DNA of 64,000 nt from contig NC_003284.9 in the NCBI RefSeq assembly GCF_000002985.6, positions 9,548,001 to 9,612,000 of the forward strand, in the 5' to 3' direction. Below the pieces are notes generated by a model. That model had not been told where the DNA came from, searched no databases, and saw nothing but the letters and a program-made list of their open reading frames with translations. Both the position numbers and the translations under genes were made by a program. Below, in pieces: positions 4,891 to 59,866 of this stretch. Origin of the DNA: Caenorhabditis elegans (Eukaryota > Nematoda > Chromadorea > Rhabditida > Rhabditidae). How positions within the stretch are numbered: the first letter of the stretch is position 1; the number at the start of each line of letters is the position of its first letter.

Positions 4891-7800
4891 ATGAGGTCTC
4901 CAAAATCAGTGAGACGTCCACACATCAGACAGCAACTGACGAACCGCAGAAAGAATCTGGGACGAGTGGCCAAGTCACAACGCAACCAATTCCGTCAATG
5001 GTCCGTTTGCAGAAAACTATCGTACTTTACAAAAGTGCATATTTTCAGGCTTCTTACTGCTGTACTTCCAAACTCTATCAACGATCAGCGTAAAGAAGCT
5101 TTTGCCTCTCTCGAGCTCACCGAGCAGCCACAGCAAGTGAGTCACGTCTGAACAAATTGGAAAAAATGTTGATAATTTTTTCTGCAAAAGTGCTCTCAAT
5201 GGCATCATGCCGGCGCACGATTGTTCCAAAACGCGCCCCGTTATCATTGCGAAAGTGAAAGTTTTTGTTGCCCTTGGGTTCTTCCCCCGTTTTGTGTGAA
5301 TGTGTTTCACTGTATGTGTGTGTGTGTGTGACTCAATTTGAACACAATTCTCCCAATTCAAACATGTGGTTAGTACACGAAAAAAACTTTGAAGGTCGAA
5401 TCGGCAAGAATTGTACATGTTTTTCTGGTTACTCATCATGTTTATTTCAGGTTGAGAAGGTCAAGAAGTCCGAGAAAAAGAAGGCCCAAAAGCAGATTGC
5501 TAAGGATCATGAAGCTGAACAAAAGGTGAACGCCAAGAAGGCCGCCGAGAAGGAAGCCCGACGTGCCGAAGCGGAAGCCAAAAAACGTGCTGCTCAAGAA
5601 GAGGAACACAAGCAATGGAAAGCCGAGCAAGAAAGAATTCAGAAGGAACAGGAAAAGAAAGAAGCTGATTTGAAGAAACTCCAAGCCGAAAAGAAAAAGG
5701 AAAAGGCTGTTAAAGCGGAGAAGGCCGAGAAAGCCGAGAAAACTAAAAAGGCCAGCACTCCAGCTCCAGTGGAAGAAGAAATTGTAGTCAAAAAGGTTGC
5801 CAACGACCGATCCGCAGCACCAGCCCCAGAACCAAAAACCCCAACAAACACTCCAGCAGAGCCAGCCGAACAGGTTCAAGAGGTAGTTGAAGAAATAAAG
5901 TTTACAACATTTCATGATTTCGTTGTTTTGTTTCAGATCACCGGAAAAAAGAACAAGAAGAACAAGAAGAAGAGTGAGAGCGAAGCAACCGCGGCCCCAG
6001 CTTCTGTCGAGCAAGTTGTTGAGCAGCCAAAGGTTGTAACGGAAGAGCCACATCAGCAGGCTGCACCACAGGAAAAGAAGAACAAAAAGAACAAGAGAAA
6101 GAGTGAAAGTGAGAATGTTCCAGCTGCCTCGGAAACTCCTGTTGAGCCAGTTGTTGAGGTGAGTTATAATCAAACCAACTGGGGCAGTGATGAAATCACA
6201 TATAAATGTTTAAATTTTGAGTAGAAGCTTTTCATAGCACTTTAAAACTGAAAATTGCACGTTATGCACGCAACATCCACCTGCAAGGCTTATTACAGAC
6301 CACCCCACCAGCTTCTGAAAACCAAAAGAAAAATAAGAAAGATAAGAAGAAGAGTGAGAGTGAGAAAGTTGTTGAAGAACCTGTCCAGGCTGAGGCTCCA
6401 AAGTCGAAAAAGCCAACTGCCGATGACAACATGGACTTCTTGGACTTCGTGACTGCGAAGGAAGAACCCAAAGATGAACCTGCGGAGACTCCAGCTGCTC
6501 CAGTGGAGGAAGTTGTTGAGAACGTAGTTGAGAACGTAGTTGAGAAGGTATAATTTAAGACAAAATATTTATCTTAAAATTTTTGAAAAAATCAAAACTA
6601 TTTGCTTTTGAAACACGCCATTAAAAATTGCACGTGCACTGTATGAAATCCGAGTCCAAATGCACGAATCACCTTGCAAAGCTTATTACAGAGCACTACC
6701 CCACCTGCTACTGAGAACAAGAAAAAGAATAAGAAGGACAAGAAGAAGAGTGAGAGCGAAAAGGTCACTGAGCAACCGGTGGAATCTGCTCCAGCTCCAC
6801 CACAAGTTGAACAAGTTGTTGAGGTAAGTTTTTGCATCATGACCTCCACCCGTTTTGTACACTTAATACATAATCCGATAATTGCACGAATGGCTAATTC
6901 AGACTACCCCACCGGCATCTGAAAACAAAAAGAAAAATAAGAAAGACAAGAAGAAGAGTGAAAGCGAGAAGGCTGTTGAAGAGCCAGTTCAAGCTGCGCC
7001 CTCATCCAAAAAGCCTACTGCTGATGACAGCATGGACTTCTTGGACTTTGTTACTGCTAAACCTGACCGCTCCGAAGTGGCAGCTCCAGTTGAGGTTGCC
7101 AAGGTAGATGAATCTACCGCAGTCACCTCAGAAAACAGGAAAAAGAACAAGAAGGACAAGAAAAAGAGTGAGAGTGAAAAAGCAGTTGAGGAGCCAGTTC
7201 AGGCTGCTCCAACATCCAAAAAACCAACTGCTGATGATAGCATGGACTTTTTGGATTTCGTAACTGCTAAGGAAGAACGTGTTGAAGAAGTGGCTCCAGT
7301 TCAAGAGCAAGTAAAAGAGCAAAAGGTGATTTCAGATGAATGTTTTCTTGTTATGCTATTTGCACGAGACTCTTGTCCAATCCATTATTTACCCTGTCCA
7401 ATCTGTCCCATTTAGAAATCAAAGAAGTCAAAGAAAACCAGCGAAAGTGAGTCCAAACGTCCAACGGCCGATGACAGCATGGACTTCTTAGACTTTGTGA
7501 CCGCCAAACCAGAGAAACCAGAACAGGTGGTCGAGGAACAGCCTGTAGTTCAGGAAGTCCCAAAACCCGAGGAGAAGGTAGACATTAATAACTAACCTTT
7601 TGCACGAAATACCTCTCCTTTTCAGGCTTCCAAAAAGAATAAAAAGAACAAGAGAAAGAGTGAGAGTGAAAAGGTATGTAGATGCATGCATGTTAAGCTT
7701 TGAGCATGAGCACTTATTTTCAAAAAGGGATATAGGCATTATATTGGGTTTTTAGGAAAAAATATTTTAATTGAACGGTATAAACCATACTTTTTGAGAA

Positions 7801-10800
7801 TGAGTCACCGGAAAGTGAGCCAGTGGCCAAGCTGATTACTGTTTCAAACACAGAGGCATCAGCCGTTAATGTCATGGGATTCTCTGACATTGTTACTCCA
7901 AAAGCAGATGAAGTGATTACCCAAGATCCAGTATCCGCCAAACAAGAGGTTTTGCCCGAGCATGTTCCGTCGGAGATACCTGAAGAGCCAGTAGCTGTTT
8001 CCAAAAAGCCAACTGCTGATAGTATGGATTTCCTCGACTTTGTGACTCCAAAGACGGAAGCAGAGAGCACTTCAGAAGCTCCAGCTCCAGTTGTTTCAAA
8101 GCCAACAGAATCTATCGAAGATCTTGAAATTGTCACTTACGAACACGTAGCTGATGTAACAGGAAACACTCTCTCTCCATCTCAGCATTCTACTCCGAGC
8201 CCCAACTCTGTTCTGCTCAATGGTCCACAATCTAAGAGCTCGAAAAGAAAGCATCATCACAAGAAAAACAAAAAGCGTACAGACAGTGAGATGTCCCAGG
8301 AGCCGAGCAAGGAAGACTTGGAGTTCCTTGAGTTCCTTCACTCTGAGCCAAAGGTTAGACATAAGTCTGAAATGCAGCTTTCTATACCTGGGCTAACAGT
8401 TTTGTGTGGAAACTTTTCTGACTAAACGTCTAAACAAACTATCCAATTACACCAACCGCTTCTCAGTTCCCTCACCATTCAATGTGTCATTTAAAAGTGG
8501 TTTTGTTAAATTTAGAACTTTTTATTAGTTGTAGATAGTAGTTTGAAAATACTTGGTTAATTGATTTTTTTTATATATTTTAGTTGTAGAATTGGAAAAA
8601 AAAACATTGCTAATTCAATAATTTTAGAAGGTCGAGAAACCAGTTGCTCCAGTATCCAAAAAGCCAACTGCTGATGATAATATGGACTTTTTGGATTTCG
8701 TCACTGCCAAACCAGAGGTGCTCAAATTTTTATACAGCAGATTTTTCATTCAAATAAATTTTCAGAAAACCGAGTCCGTTGAAGAGCACATTGAAGCTCC
8801 AATGATTGTTGAACCAGTTCATGCTGAAAATGAGGTGAGGCAGCTAATTACATCTAAAAATGCTTGCAAAAGTAGATAGTTTGCACCCACCGCTGATAAT
8901 ACTCTCGATGAAATGGTGTCTTCAGTCAACTGTTTGATCCAATTAATTTTCATTTAGGTTGACTCAGACGTGGCACTAGATTCCTTTGAAATAATAGATG
9001 CTCAAGAGGTGGCAGAGCTGGTATCTGCACCGGAGATGACTGTTGAGGAGGTAGAGGGTTTAAGAGCTACAAAATAACATGGTGTGAAGACAATATTCAC
9101 AGACACTCAGTTTGAATACTAATAGCTTTTGAACGAGACTCACCCAAACGATATGCTTCTCTCCTATCAGTTTCCATGATCTGATTTAATCCCATCCAAA
9201 ACGTCCTAACATTTCAGACCGCTGCCGCTGCAGGTGGAAAGAAGAAGAACAAGAAAAATAAGAATAAGAAGAATAGCGAAAGTGAATCCACCCCAGCTGC
9301 CGAGCCAGTCAAGGAAGTCACTCCAGAAATTGTTGAGGAAGTGTTTGAAAAGAAAACCATCACTCCAAGTACTGCAGCTGCCGCTGCTCCAGCACCAGGT
9401 TCAAAGGTATATTGCACTTATTTCCCAAATATTCTTATGAATGCCGACTCCTGCAAGAAAATAAAATTAATGATAAATGTTTCCCCAATCGCACAGAAAT
9501 CTTCTAATTTAGTATGCGAAACGCTTGAACAAGACGTTTAATGTTTACATTCAAAATTATTATCAGATGTGTTTTAAACCTTGAGACATGACTAGAATGA
9601 TGGGTATGAAAACTTTTCATCATAGTAATGTAGTAATAGAAATCCCAAACATTTGTTGGGACGGATACTTCCAATTATCAAAACATTTGATTTTTGTGCT
9701 AGTATTATTCTTTTTGGGTATTGCATTTGTAGGTTTCTGGTCATCTCTTGAGATTTAAAGTGTTCTTATCTTGTTTTATTTGAAAAATTTTCAGAAGAAC
9801 AAGAAGAACAAGAAGAACAGCGAGAGTGAATCCGCCCCAGCTGCCGAGCCAGTCAAGGAAGTCACCCCAGAGATTGTTGAGGAAGTGTTTGAAAAAAAAA
9901 CCGTTACACCAAGCACTGAAGCTGCAGCTGCTCCAGCATCAGCTTCAAAGGTAGATTGCACTCATTCCCCAAGTGTTCATATGAATCGTTCATATGAATC
10001 GATTTGGTATGTGGAATATTTGAACAAGGCAAAAAATGTTTAATAATCATCTGATTTGTGTTAAATCTTGACTAGAATGATGGGTGAAAATGCAGTAATA
10101 TAAATCCCAAAAAATTATTGGCACTGACACTTCCCATAATCAAACAACTTGATTTTGGGCTGGTATTTTCATTTTTGGGAAATGAAATTGTAGGTTTCTA
10201 GTCATCTCTTGAAGTCTAAAATATTTTTAACCTTCTTTACTACTTTAAAGAATTTCAGAAGAACAAGAAGAACAAGAAAGGATCCGGAATCTCCGAGTCT
10301 CACGACACTGCCCCAGCTCCAACTGTTGAAATTCCACAGACAACCGAAGGAGGAAAGGGATCCCCAGGAAGTGATAAGGAAAATTCTGGAAGTGCCGTCA
10401 ATGGATCCGCCAAAAAGCAAATGTCTGTTGAGGAGCTCGACTACGGAGTTCCAGGCCAAACAACCGATACAACCACTGACAAGAAGAACAAGAAGAAGAA
10501 TAAGAAGGGAAAGAACTCTAACTCAATATCGGAAAATGCTCAGGTGATTGCTCACCTCGAGCAAGATCACCTGGATCAAATGGCTGACGATGAGGTACAG
10601 GCCATCACAGGAGCTGCTGGATCTCATTCCCCACCAATTCAAGTTCATGAAGTAACTAGCTCAGAACAACACTCCAACGGAGGTAGGCATTCTTTGTACA
10701 AATATACCACAGATGAATAGTTTTTACCAAGTTACACTGACTGGCGATTCTAAAGAAAATATTGTTAATCATATACTTGTGCATTTGTGTCAATAAAATA

Positions 10801-11878
10801 TGCACTATGAAGATATGAACTACTTGAGTTGTTGACCTTATTAGTGAAGAGAGCATAGCTTTCTTGGGTACATGAATGAACAATTTAACTGATCTTATTT
10901 GTTATAATATTTTAAACGTGTGGCTAGTAGACAATTCAAAAATTTTAATTTTCAGTTGAGAAAAACACTACAATCGAAATCACTCAAGCTGTTGACGGAA
11001 CCGATATGTCCCAGACTCAATTCCAGAAGAATGTTGAGAAACTCGTTCAGGCTACGCTTGCCAAGCATGACATTGTAGAAATTGACCCAACCGTGGTGAG
11101 TTGTCCCAGAATTTACATACAGTTTTTTTCATAACATTTTCTTTCATTTTTGTTGTGGAATGCAGTATATTTCTGCCTCACTACACATAGTTTAGAATAT
11201 AGAAACCCTTGTTTTGATTGCTTCAGAAACTGCGCATCGATGCCCAACTCATCAAGCTGTCGGAGAAAAAGGCGCCTGCTGTTGTGATGGAACACGTCAA
11301 CTACATCAAGCCATTGCCAATGGAACTTCACGTCTCTCGACCATCGGTAGTGTAATTAAAGTTGTACAGATTTTTAAAAACTAATCAGGCTTTCATTGCT
11401 ATTTCCAAAATTCAAAAAACTTTATTTTGAATTTCGTTTCCCTGAAATGTAATACTAGAACATTAGCAAATTTTCAGACTCCAAGCCGCGACCGTGTCTA
11501 CAAACTTCTGCCAAAGGATATTATTTTCTGTGCAGGACTCATGGACTCTCACGGTGAAAACTACGCTGTAAGAAACTTTCCACTCGAGTTTGTCTAATTA
11601 ATGTTAACATTTCTAGGCTATGGCTGCCGATGAACGTAACATCTTCAAGGACACCTCACGCGCACTTCAAAGAAAGATCCGCATTTTCAAGGTGAATTTA
11701 AAAATATTGAAGTGAATTTGTGGGAGCAGGAATTTTGCTATTATAATTTCTAAAACTGTCATAAAATATAAATTAAATCTTCTTATATTTCCAGGAATCC
11801 CCACACTACCACACCTATCTCCGTGCAAAGGAGGAAAACCGTCCGATCGAGGAGGTCATTGCTGAGGCACAACACTAA
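4891..11878 (+). CDS. Lysine/serine/glutamate-rich repeat protein with a Nop16-like C-terminal domain
   Basis: Probably F49E2.5 (from memory). Exons: 4891-5136 (may hold a 48-bp intron 5001-5048), 5451-5882 (may read through to 5937), 5937-6158, 6299-6547, 6692-6823, 6903-7325, 7416-7577, 7626-7673, 7799-8353, 8628-8717, 8766-8834, 8958-9050, 9218-9406, 9795-9950, 10259-10682, 10956-11095, 11227-11346, 11478-11567, 11617-11691, 11795-11878; about 1,310-1,330 residues if all are used. After a basic N-terminus comes a charged Lys/Ala/Glu coiled-coil-like segment (5451-5800). Basic KKNKKDKKKSESE modules then alternate with the peptide PTADDSMDFLDFVTAK. The last four exons give DIIFCAGLMDSHGENYAAMA and a conserved Asp/Arg/Lys tail, which resembles the C-terminus of nucleolar Nop16. 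A nucleolar role is inferred. Nearly all introns are phase 0, so middle exons can be skipped in frame. Confidence 0.9.
6159..7798 (+). promoter_or_regulatory. Cluster of intronic GCACG and GCATG motifs
   Basis: GCACG occurs at 6257, 6266, 6630, 6662, 6884, 7362 and 7602, at least one in each of five consecutive introns. The sixth intron carries GCATG at 7684, 7688 and 7704. These are the two pentamers recognised by nematode FOX-1/ASD-1 (RBFOX family) splicing factors. All flank phase-0 repeat-module exons, so they are candidate splicing control elements. Some copies may simply descend from duplication of exon plus intron. Confidence 0.5.
9238..10258 (+). repeat. Tandem duplication of an exon with its downstream intron
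   Basis: The exon at 9218-9406 and the exon at 9795-9950 share almost the same coding sequence (KKNKKNSESES then AAEPVKEVTPEIVEEVFEKK). The introns after them also match, including ACTAGAATGATGGGT at about 9590 and 10073 and GTAGGTTTCT at 9730 and 10190. This shows the repeat gene grew by duplicating genomic exon-intron units and that this event is fairly recent. Confidence 0.85.
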
Positions 11879-57492: not shown

Positions 57493-57618
57493 ATGTGGGT
57501 CTCACCGCGAAGGGTCTCACCACGATGGGTCTCACCACGAAGGGTCTCACCACGATGGGTCTCACCACGATGGGTCTCACCACGAAGGGTCTCACCACGA
57601 TGGGTCTCACGACGAAGG
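57493..57618. repeat. 15-bp tandem repeat GGGTCTCACCACGAW
   Basis: About eight head-to-tail copies of GGGTCTCACCACGAT or ...GAAG stand between the short minisatellite block and the internal Helitron 5'-end copy. Confidence 0.92.
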
Positions 57619-57744
57619 TGACAGGCCCCGCCCACAACTCTCACTGACTTTGGGTGTGACGTCACAGACTACAAAGACTACATAGACTACAAACTATGGA
57701 CAGACGAACTGTATTTTTTTATATATAAGTAATGATATTTTTTT

Positions 57745-59652
57745 CATAGAAAATTTGAATTTCCCGCCAAAATTTTTTCACTGAAAATTTGAATTTCCCG
57801 CCAAAATTTTTTCAGAAAATTTGAATTCACGCCAAAAATTTTCAAAGAAAATTTGAATTCCCGCCAAAAAATTTTTCAGAAAATTTGAATTCCCGCCAAA
57901 AATTTTCAAAGAAAATTTGAATTCCCGCCAAAAAATTTTGAAGGAAATTTAAATTCCCGCCAAAATGTTTCAGAGAAAATTTGAACTCCCGCCAAAAATT
58001 TTTCAGAAAATTTGAATTCCCGCCAAAATTTTTCACAGAAAATTTGAATTCCCGCCAAAAAATTTTAAAGAAAATTTGAATTCCCGCCAAAAATTTTCAA
58101 AGAAAATTTGAATTCCCGCCAAAAAATTTTGAAGGAAATTTAAATTCCCGCCAAAATTTTTCAGAGAAAATTTGAACTCCCGCCAAAAATTTTTCAGAAA
58201 ATTTGAATTCCCGCCAAAATTTTTCACGGAAAATTTGAATTCCCGCCAAAAAATTTTAAAGAAAATTTAAATTCCCGCCAAAAATTTTCAGAGAAAATTT
58301 GAATTCCCGCCAAAAATTTTCAAAGAAAATTTGAATTCCCGCCAAAAAATTTTGAAGGAAATTTAAATTCCCGCCAAAATGTTTCAGAGAAAATTTGAAC
58401 TCCCGCCAAAAATTTTTCAGAAAATTTGAATTCCCGCCAAAATTTTTCACAGAAAATTTGAATTCCCGCCAAAAAATTTTAAAGAAAATTTGAATTCCCG
58501 CCAAAAATTTTTCAGAAAATTTGAATTCCCGCCAAAATTTTTCACAGAAAATTTGAATTCCCGCCAAAAAATTTTAAAGAAAATTTGAATTCCCGCCAAA
58601 AATTTTCAAAGAAAATTTGAATTCCCGCCAAAAAATTTTGAAGGAAATTTAAATTCCCGCCAAAATTTTTCAGAGAAAATTTGAACTCCCGCCAAAAATT
58701 TTTCAGAAAATTTGAATTCCCGCCAAAATTTTTCACGGAAAATTTGAATTCCCGCCAAAAAATTTTAAAGAAAATTTAAATTCCCGCCAAAAATTTTCAG
58801 AGAAAATTTGAATTCCCGCCAAAAATTTTCAAAGAAAATTTGAATTCCCGCCAAAAAATTTTGAAGGAAATTTAAATTCCCGCCAAAATGTTTCAGAGAA
58901 AATTTGAACTCCCGCCAAAAATTTTTCAGAAAATTTGAATTCCCGCCAAAATTTTTCACAGAAAATTTGAATTCCCGCCAAAAAATTTTAAAGAAAATTT
59001 GAATTCCCGCCAAAAATTTTCAAAGAAAATTTGAATTCCCGCCAAAAAATTTTGAAGGAAATTTAAATTCCCGCCAAAATTTTTCAGAGAAAATTTGAAC
59101 TCCCGCCAAAAATTTTTCAGAAAATTTGAATTCCCGCCAAAATTTTTCACGGAAAATTTGAATTCCCGCCAAAAAATTTTAAAGAAAATTTAAATTCCCG
59201 CCAAAAATTTTCAGAGAAAATTTGAATTCCCGCCAAAAATGTTTCAGAAAATTTGAATTCACGCCAAAAATTTTCAGAGAAATTTTGAATTCCCGCCAAA
59301 AAATTTTAAAGAAAATTTAAATTCCCGCCAAAAATTTTCAGAGAAAATTTGAATTCCCGCCAAAAATGTTTCAGAAAATTTGAATTCACGCCAAAAATTT
59401 TCAGAGAAATTTTGAATTCCCGCCAAAAAATTTTAAAGAAAATTTAAATTCCCGCCAAAAATTTTCAGAGAAAATTTGAATTCCCGCCAAAAATGTTTCA
59501 GAAAATTTGAATTCACGCCAAAAATTTTCAAAGAAAATTTGAATTCCCGCCAAAAAATTTTGAAGAAAATTTGAACTACCGCCAAAAATTTTCACAGAAA
59601 ATTTGAATTCCCGCCGAAAAATTTCAAAGAAAATTTAAATTCCCGCCAAAAT
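57745..59652. repeat. Large minisatellite array with higher-order structure
   Basis: About 1.9 kb of units of roughly 30-35 bp share GAAAATTTGAATTCCCGCC followed by an A/T-rich spacer. Specific unit orders recur: segments starting at 58033, 58542 and 58956 are the same over about 190 bases, spaced 509 and 414 bases. Near the end a block of about 127 bp recurs at 59274 and 59401. This is higher-order tandem amplification. Open minus-strand frames through it are a by-product. Confidence 0.93.
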
Positions 59653-59654
59653 GT

Positions 59655-59748
59655 ATGGGTCTCGCCACGATGGGTCTCGCCACGATGGGTCTCGCCACGA
59701 TGGGTCTCGCCACGAAGGGTCTCGCAACGATGGGTCTCGCCACGAAGG
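59655..59748. repeat. 15-bp tandem repeat GGGTCTCGCCACGAW
   Basis: About six copies, one with GCAACGA, sit between the large minisatellite and the outer Helitron 5' end. It is the same unit as at 57493 but with G in place of A at one position in nearly all copies. Confidence 0.92.
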
Positions 59749-59866
59749 GTGACTGGCCCCGCCCACAACTCTCAGTGACTTTAGGGGTGACGTCACAGAC
59801 TACAAAGACTACATAGACTACAAACTATAGACAGACCCACACTATTTTTTTATATATAAGTAATGA

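Follow-up and report, generated by a model that had tools for sequence, protein, structure and literature searches.

Candidate RBFOX-responsive splicing array in introns 4-9 of the X-linked Caenorhabditis elegans gene F49E2.5

Several consecutive introns of a C. elegans gene built from repeated modules carry the same GC-rich word, naturally raising the question of whether the word arose by chance, was copied along with the modules, or is read by a splicing factor that decides how many modules enter the protein. The window analysed here, a stretch of 64,000 nucleotides, is C. elegans X:9,548,001-9,612,000, and by position the gene inside it is F49E2.5, in agreement with the first-pass annotation, which had suspected a gene on X. 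A mutation table in PMC4686824 places F49E2.5 at X:9,552,913, a coordinate that falls within exon 1 of our model. The base at that coordinate is G in our sequence and C in the printed table, probably reflecting a different genome release, and because of this mismatch the gene name rests on approximate position. A Pfam search of the protein gave a strong match to DUF612 (1225 bits), while Nop16 reached 20.9 bits, below the cut-off of 25; the database name attached to all 12 C. elegans representatives is 'Nucleolar protein 16'. In the accessible texts, the printed record of F49E2.5 consists of the mutation table in PMC4686824 and of expression lists. A literature search found no publication on nol-16 in C. 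elegans, and the sole match for DUF612 in C. elegans apparently concerns tenascins. The gene and its variable part are as follows.

4891..11877, forward strand: F49E2.5 coding region from first ATG to stop, 21-exon model, DUF612, with a weakly Nop16-like C-terminus
6299..8353, forward strand: cassette block, exons 5-10 with introns 5-9, present in nine combinations of the six exons among 12 isoforms

Protein searches yielded 12 C. elegans isoform representatives, database models standing for 17 member sequences, and every one of them agrees exactly with the 21-exon model at each exon it contains. None of these isoforms contains all 21 exons. Exons 1-4, 11, 12 and 15-21 are present in 12/12, exon 13 is found in two, and exon 14 is absent from one, while exons 5-10 are alternatively spliced in combinations ranging from all six to none, so that the cassette-exon gene described in the first-pass annotation is borne out. 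Exons 8 and 9 behave as a pair, present in three isoforms and absent in nine, and by exon counts an isoform holds one to six modules with a DFLDFV core. The modules had also been described as phase 0, and indeed exons 3-15 all start in phase 0 and have lengths that are multiples of three; the lengths of exons 5-10 (249, 132, 423, 162, 48 and 555) are every one divisible by three. The acceptors of exons 5-10 fit TTTTCAG slightly worse than 13 others (intron 12 excluded; one-sided p=0.049). The exon 10 acceptor (7790-7804) is unusual: it reads TTTTTGAG, another in-frame AG follows six bases later, and the first AG is the one used by isoforms carrying exon 10. Among 20 proteins from outside C. 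elegans, the DFLDFV core was found in three (two copies in C. briggsae, eight over the 1833 residues of the C. angaria relative, and five in Diploscapter) and in none of the other 17; the eight copies in C. angaria against two in C. briggsae indicate that module number varies widely across species. Separately, intron 3 (5883-5936, 54 nt) is in frame and stop-free, and its retention would add 18 residues; such retention is absent from all 12 isoform representatives.

The first-pass annotation had counted seven GCACG across five introns between 6159 and 7625, three GCATG in the next intron, and about 630 bases of intron in total. All of these figures were verified. Introns 4-8 (501 nt) contain seven sense-strand GCACG, with no intron of the five lacking it, and introns 4-9 total 626 nt, with lengths of 140, 144, 79, 90, 48 and 125 nt.

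6159..6298, forward strand: intron 4, GCACG at 6257 and 6266 (-42 and -33 from the exon 5 acceptor)
6548..6691, forward strand: intron 5, GCACG at 6630 and 6662 (-62 and -30 from the exon 6 acceptor)
6824..6902, forward strand: intron 6, GCACG at 6884 (-19 from the exon 7 acceptor)
7326..7415, forward strand: intron 7, GCACG at 7362 (+37 from the exon 7 donor, -54 from the exon 8 acceptor)
7578..7625, forward strand: intron 8, GCACG at 7602 (+25 from the donor, -24 from the acceptor)
7674..7798, forward strand: intron 9, GCATG at 7684, 7688 and 7704 (+11, +15 and +31 relative to the donor of exon 9, which is 48 nt long), acceptor TTTTTGAG
7030..7964, forward strand: GCATG copies within exons, two in exon 7 (7030 and 7240), one in exon 8 (7477) and one in exon 10 (7960)

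The earlier observation is thus confirmed, and the array is somewhat stronger than first stated: all seven copies are TGCACG, with the U of the RBFOX hexamer present, and five of them, one per intron, are TTGCACG. The five sites in introns 4-6 are acceptor-proximal (-19 to -62), the one in intron 7 is donor-proximal, and the one in intron 8 lies midway. Counting GCACG and GCATG together, introns 4-9 hold 10 sense words against two antisense ones, both inside palindromes, as expected of an RNA signal. With exons included, the block 6159-8353 holds 14 sense and two antisense words, four of the 14 being exonic GCATG; those at 7030, 7240 and 7477 coincide with AGC ATG codons of the repeated module, and coding may therefore suffice to explain them. 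The variable exons and the motif-bearing introns form nearly overlapping blocks. Six of the seven introns 4-10 carry GCACG or GCATG, compared with intron 2 alone among the 13 others (post hoc Fisher p=0.0012); intron 10 has neither word. Neither word occurs in the introns flanking cassette exons 13 and 14, which are nonetheless skipped in some isoforms, so the motif is not required for skipping as such.

Chance is a poor explanation for the GCACG array. The expectation that such a pentamer should be rare in these introns was upheld by 3000 dinucleotide shuffles, in which GCACG reached at most three copies and at most two of the five introns. When all words were treated alike and splice signals were trimmed, TTGCACG was the sole 7-mer common to introns 4-8. 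Some word common to all five introns appeared in 80 of the 3000 shuffles at length five, in three at length six and in none at length seven, and no shuffle yielded a shared 5-, 6- or 7-mer of at least 60% GC. Genome-wide, TGCACG occurs 17,487 times (8763+8724, both strands, 100,286,401 bp), which predicts 0.044 copies in 501 nt. At this rate the probability of at least one TGCACG in each of the five introns is 3.4e-11, or about 0.014 after a crude correction for 4096 hexamers and an assumed 1e5 intron runs, both figures being post hoc, assuming independence and ignoring shared descent. A general genome-wide excess of the words was considered and rejected, as that of TTGCACG is negligible (6723 against 6431 for the reversed word) and TGCACG shows none (17,487 against 18,816).

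The same picture emerged from a comparison with 264 kb of X, where any 1,467-nt stretch elsewhere holds at most two TGCACG per strand; GCACG and GCATG together number 13 per 1,467 nt here and six at the next best place. TGCATG alone shows no excess in this comparison, with two copies per 1,467 nt here against three at several other places. Across the 264 kb, 18 of 1408 GC-rich hexamers reach at least seven copies per strand in some 1,467-nt stretch. Ten of these fall in a part of the window with tandem repeats, at about 57-60.5 kb, and two are homopolymers; the clustered hexamers also include GCTCCA (in F49E2.5's own stretch), TTGCCG, AGTGCG, GTGCGT, CTCCAG and TGCACG itself. Seven copies of one word are therefore not unique, and what is found only here is their spread intron by intron, a comparison that covers the ten hexamers of the tandem-repeat region, the two homopolymers, GCTCCA and TGCACG. 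In the distal part of the window, a tandem array at 57741-59651 repeats a 32-base unit about 60 times, with higher-order periods of 127 and 191; arrays of a 15-base unit border it on both sides, at 57497-57618 and 59655-59750.

Exons 5-8 are paralogous modules with introns at equivalent module positions, and the introns may therefore be copies as well. TGCACG would then be a passive, functionless leftover of tandem exon-plus-intron duplication, an alternative that we regard as unlikely. The first-pass annotation had allowed that duplication explains part of the pattern, and some relatedness does exist: over about 30 nt the 3' ends of introns 4 and 5 are related, a short stretch beside the motif is common to introns 5 and 6, and without masking five of the ten possible pairings within introns 4-8 align at p<0.05. 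Duplication alone fared poorly, however, as none of the ten pairs beat 1000 shuffles once the motif was masked (p 0.175 to 0.999). The 15-nt motif flanks are 31-36% identical against 27% expected, with a core that is 100% identical by choice. The motif is kept amid introns that have otherwise diverged. Masked pairs reaching beyond introns 4-8, with 14/15 set aside, gave p<0.05 in three of 17 cases (4/15, 5/9 and 5/14), which may be about what a few long AT-rich introns yield. A genome search with intron 5, the query chosen from among introns 4, 5, 6, 7 and 8, matched only itself, and the idea that the intron block is a dispersed repeat was dropped.

Exons 14 and 15 with introns 14 and 15 (9218-10258) form an apparent, more recent duplication within F49E2.5. 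These two exons are identical at 47/52 residues and differ at 3/22 four-fold sites, and their introns still align over 292 columns. The modules, by comparison, differ at 74/131 four-fold sites (pooled pairs). In a rough star-tree model, the probability that an inherited hexamer persists is 7e-7 for five lineages and 2e-4 for three. A passive leftover also leaves the GCATG copies of intron 9 unexplained. Simple shared descent is thus a poor explanation of TGCACG, and selective retention or repeated gain is the better reading of these comparisons.

If the words are maintained, another RNA-binding protein might read them in place of RBFOX, above all MEC-8 of the RBPMS family, whose word GCAC occurs in every one of introns 4-9, with 10 copies in total. 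The title of a 2017 paper by Soufari and Mackereth reportedly gives GCAC as the MEC-8 motif. According to the accessible text of PMC5697891, MEC-8 represses exon inclusion; the MEC-8 word used there is GCACA, and neither introns 4-9 nor exons 5-10 contain a single copy of this mark of a MEC-8 target. Moreover, seven of the 10 GCAC are followed by G, the same text reports MEC-8 sites as enriched in cassette exons and FOX/ASD sites in introns, and MEC-8 would give no account of the GCATG in intron 9, all of which makes a MEC-8 array quite improbable. That the words act through inter-intron base pairing (Dscam-like docking) or as DNA elements is very hard to believe. Self-complementary words in intron 5 (TGCACGTGCA) and intron 9 (TGCATGCATG) speak for it, whereas the complement of GCACG occurs just once in the block, inside the intron 5 palindrome, and provides no set of docking partners, none of the six introns folded singly is unusual (z from -0.96 to 0.98), the isoforms are multi-inclusion combinations and not mutually exclusive exons, and the words of introns 4-9 run 10 sense to two antisense.

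Among the readings considered, the best is that introns 4-9 of F49E2.5 constitute an RBFOX-responsive splicing array controlling module number, and judging from the sequence we think this rather likely. An RBFOX target should carry GCAUG or GCACG beyond chance in introns flanking alternative exons; here the words exceed chance in just such introns, and the exons they flank, 5-10, are alternatively spliced among the 12 isoform representatives. FOX-1 and/or ASD-1 would bind the pre-mRNA at UGCACG in introns 4-8 and at UGCAUG in intron 9, and this binding would bias the retention of individual exons in the cassette block 5-10, and hence the count of repeat modules. RBFOX proteins repress from upstream and activate from downstream of an exon. 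Judged by motif position, the acceptor-proximal sites in introns 4-6 would repress exons 5-7, whereas inclusion of exons 8 and 9 as a pair would be promoted by the donor-proximal sites in intron 9. As most introns of the array sit between two cassettes, the sign of regulation is ambiguous. The array, its excess over chance, the cassette exons and the persistence of the motif in diverged introns are observations, and the binding protein, the direction and the tissue of F49E2.5 regulation are inferred. The RBFOX interpretation put forward in the first-pass annotation is partly supported.

The closest published system is xol-1, where, as the first-pass annotation had noted, FOX-1 works by way of two words, GCAUG and GCACG, at five sites in the 466-bp intron VI (PMC7787662, accessible text). 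The two cases are alike in having both words, several sites and an X-linked gene, and the 466 bp within which the xol-1 sites decide the splicing outcome are similar in size to the 626 nt of the six F49E2.5 introns. They differ in that xol-1 uses one intron and non-productive splicing, whereas F49E2.5 has six consecutive introns and frame-preserving cassettes, and in that FOX-1 binding and site mutants have been demonstrated for xol-1 (PMC7787662, same text), whereas F49E2.5 is known from sequence and isoform models. The accessible text of PMC3585155 gives UGCAUG as the RBFOX preference and describes egl-15 exon 5B, repressed by ASD-1/FOX-1 from UGCAUG in the upstream intron, and unc-32, where ASD-1 and FOX-1 are redundant. 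Like F49E2.5, egl-15 exon 5B and unc-32 exons 7a/7b have RBFOX words in introns beside alternative exons, each with one GCAUG, mutually exclusive exons and SUP-12 or UNC-75 as partner (PMC3585155). F49E2.5, in contrast, has mainly GCACG, many sites and separate cassettes. GTGTG, the SUP-12 word, is absent from introns 4-9.

A literature search for FOX-1 CLIP together with GCACG in C. elegans splicing found no publication. In the accessible text of PMC5697891, a mutant study, the FOX-1/ASD-1 word counted was GCAUG only, with GCACG left out, and single mutants were used; F49E2.5 could therefore have been missed. The same text reports that, of 189 exons carrying conserved GCAUG, only 10 responded to the asd-1 mutation, and that neither asd-1 nor fox-1 showed significant motif enrichment, which means that the motif alone predicts regulation poorly.

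As a bolder extension, to which we give little credence, F49E2.5 might join xol-1 as a second gene that reads FOX-1 in a dose-sensitive way: the amount of FOX-1, which tracks the number of X chromosomes, together with the level of ASD-1 would be converted into a graded, sex- or tissue-specific number of modules in a nucleolar-type protein, making RBFOX a counter of tandem modules by way of the less-studied GCACG. If the proposed splicing array is real, a single splicing factor would determine how many copies of a repeat a protein has, acting through words distributed across consecutive introns, and GCACG would carry regulation beyond xol-1.
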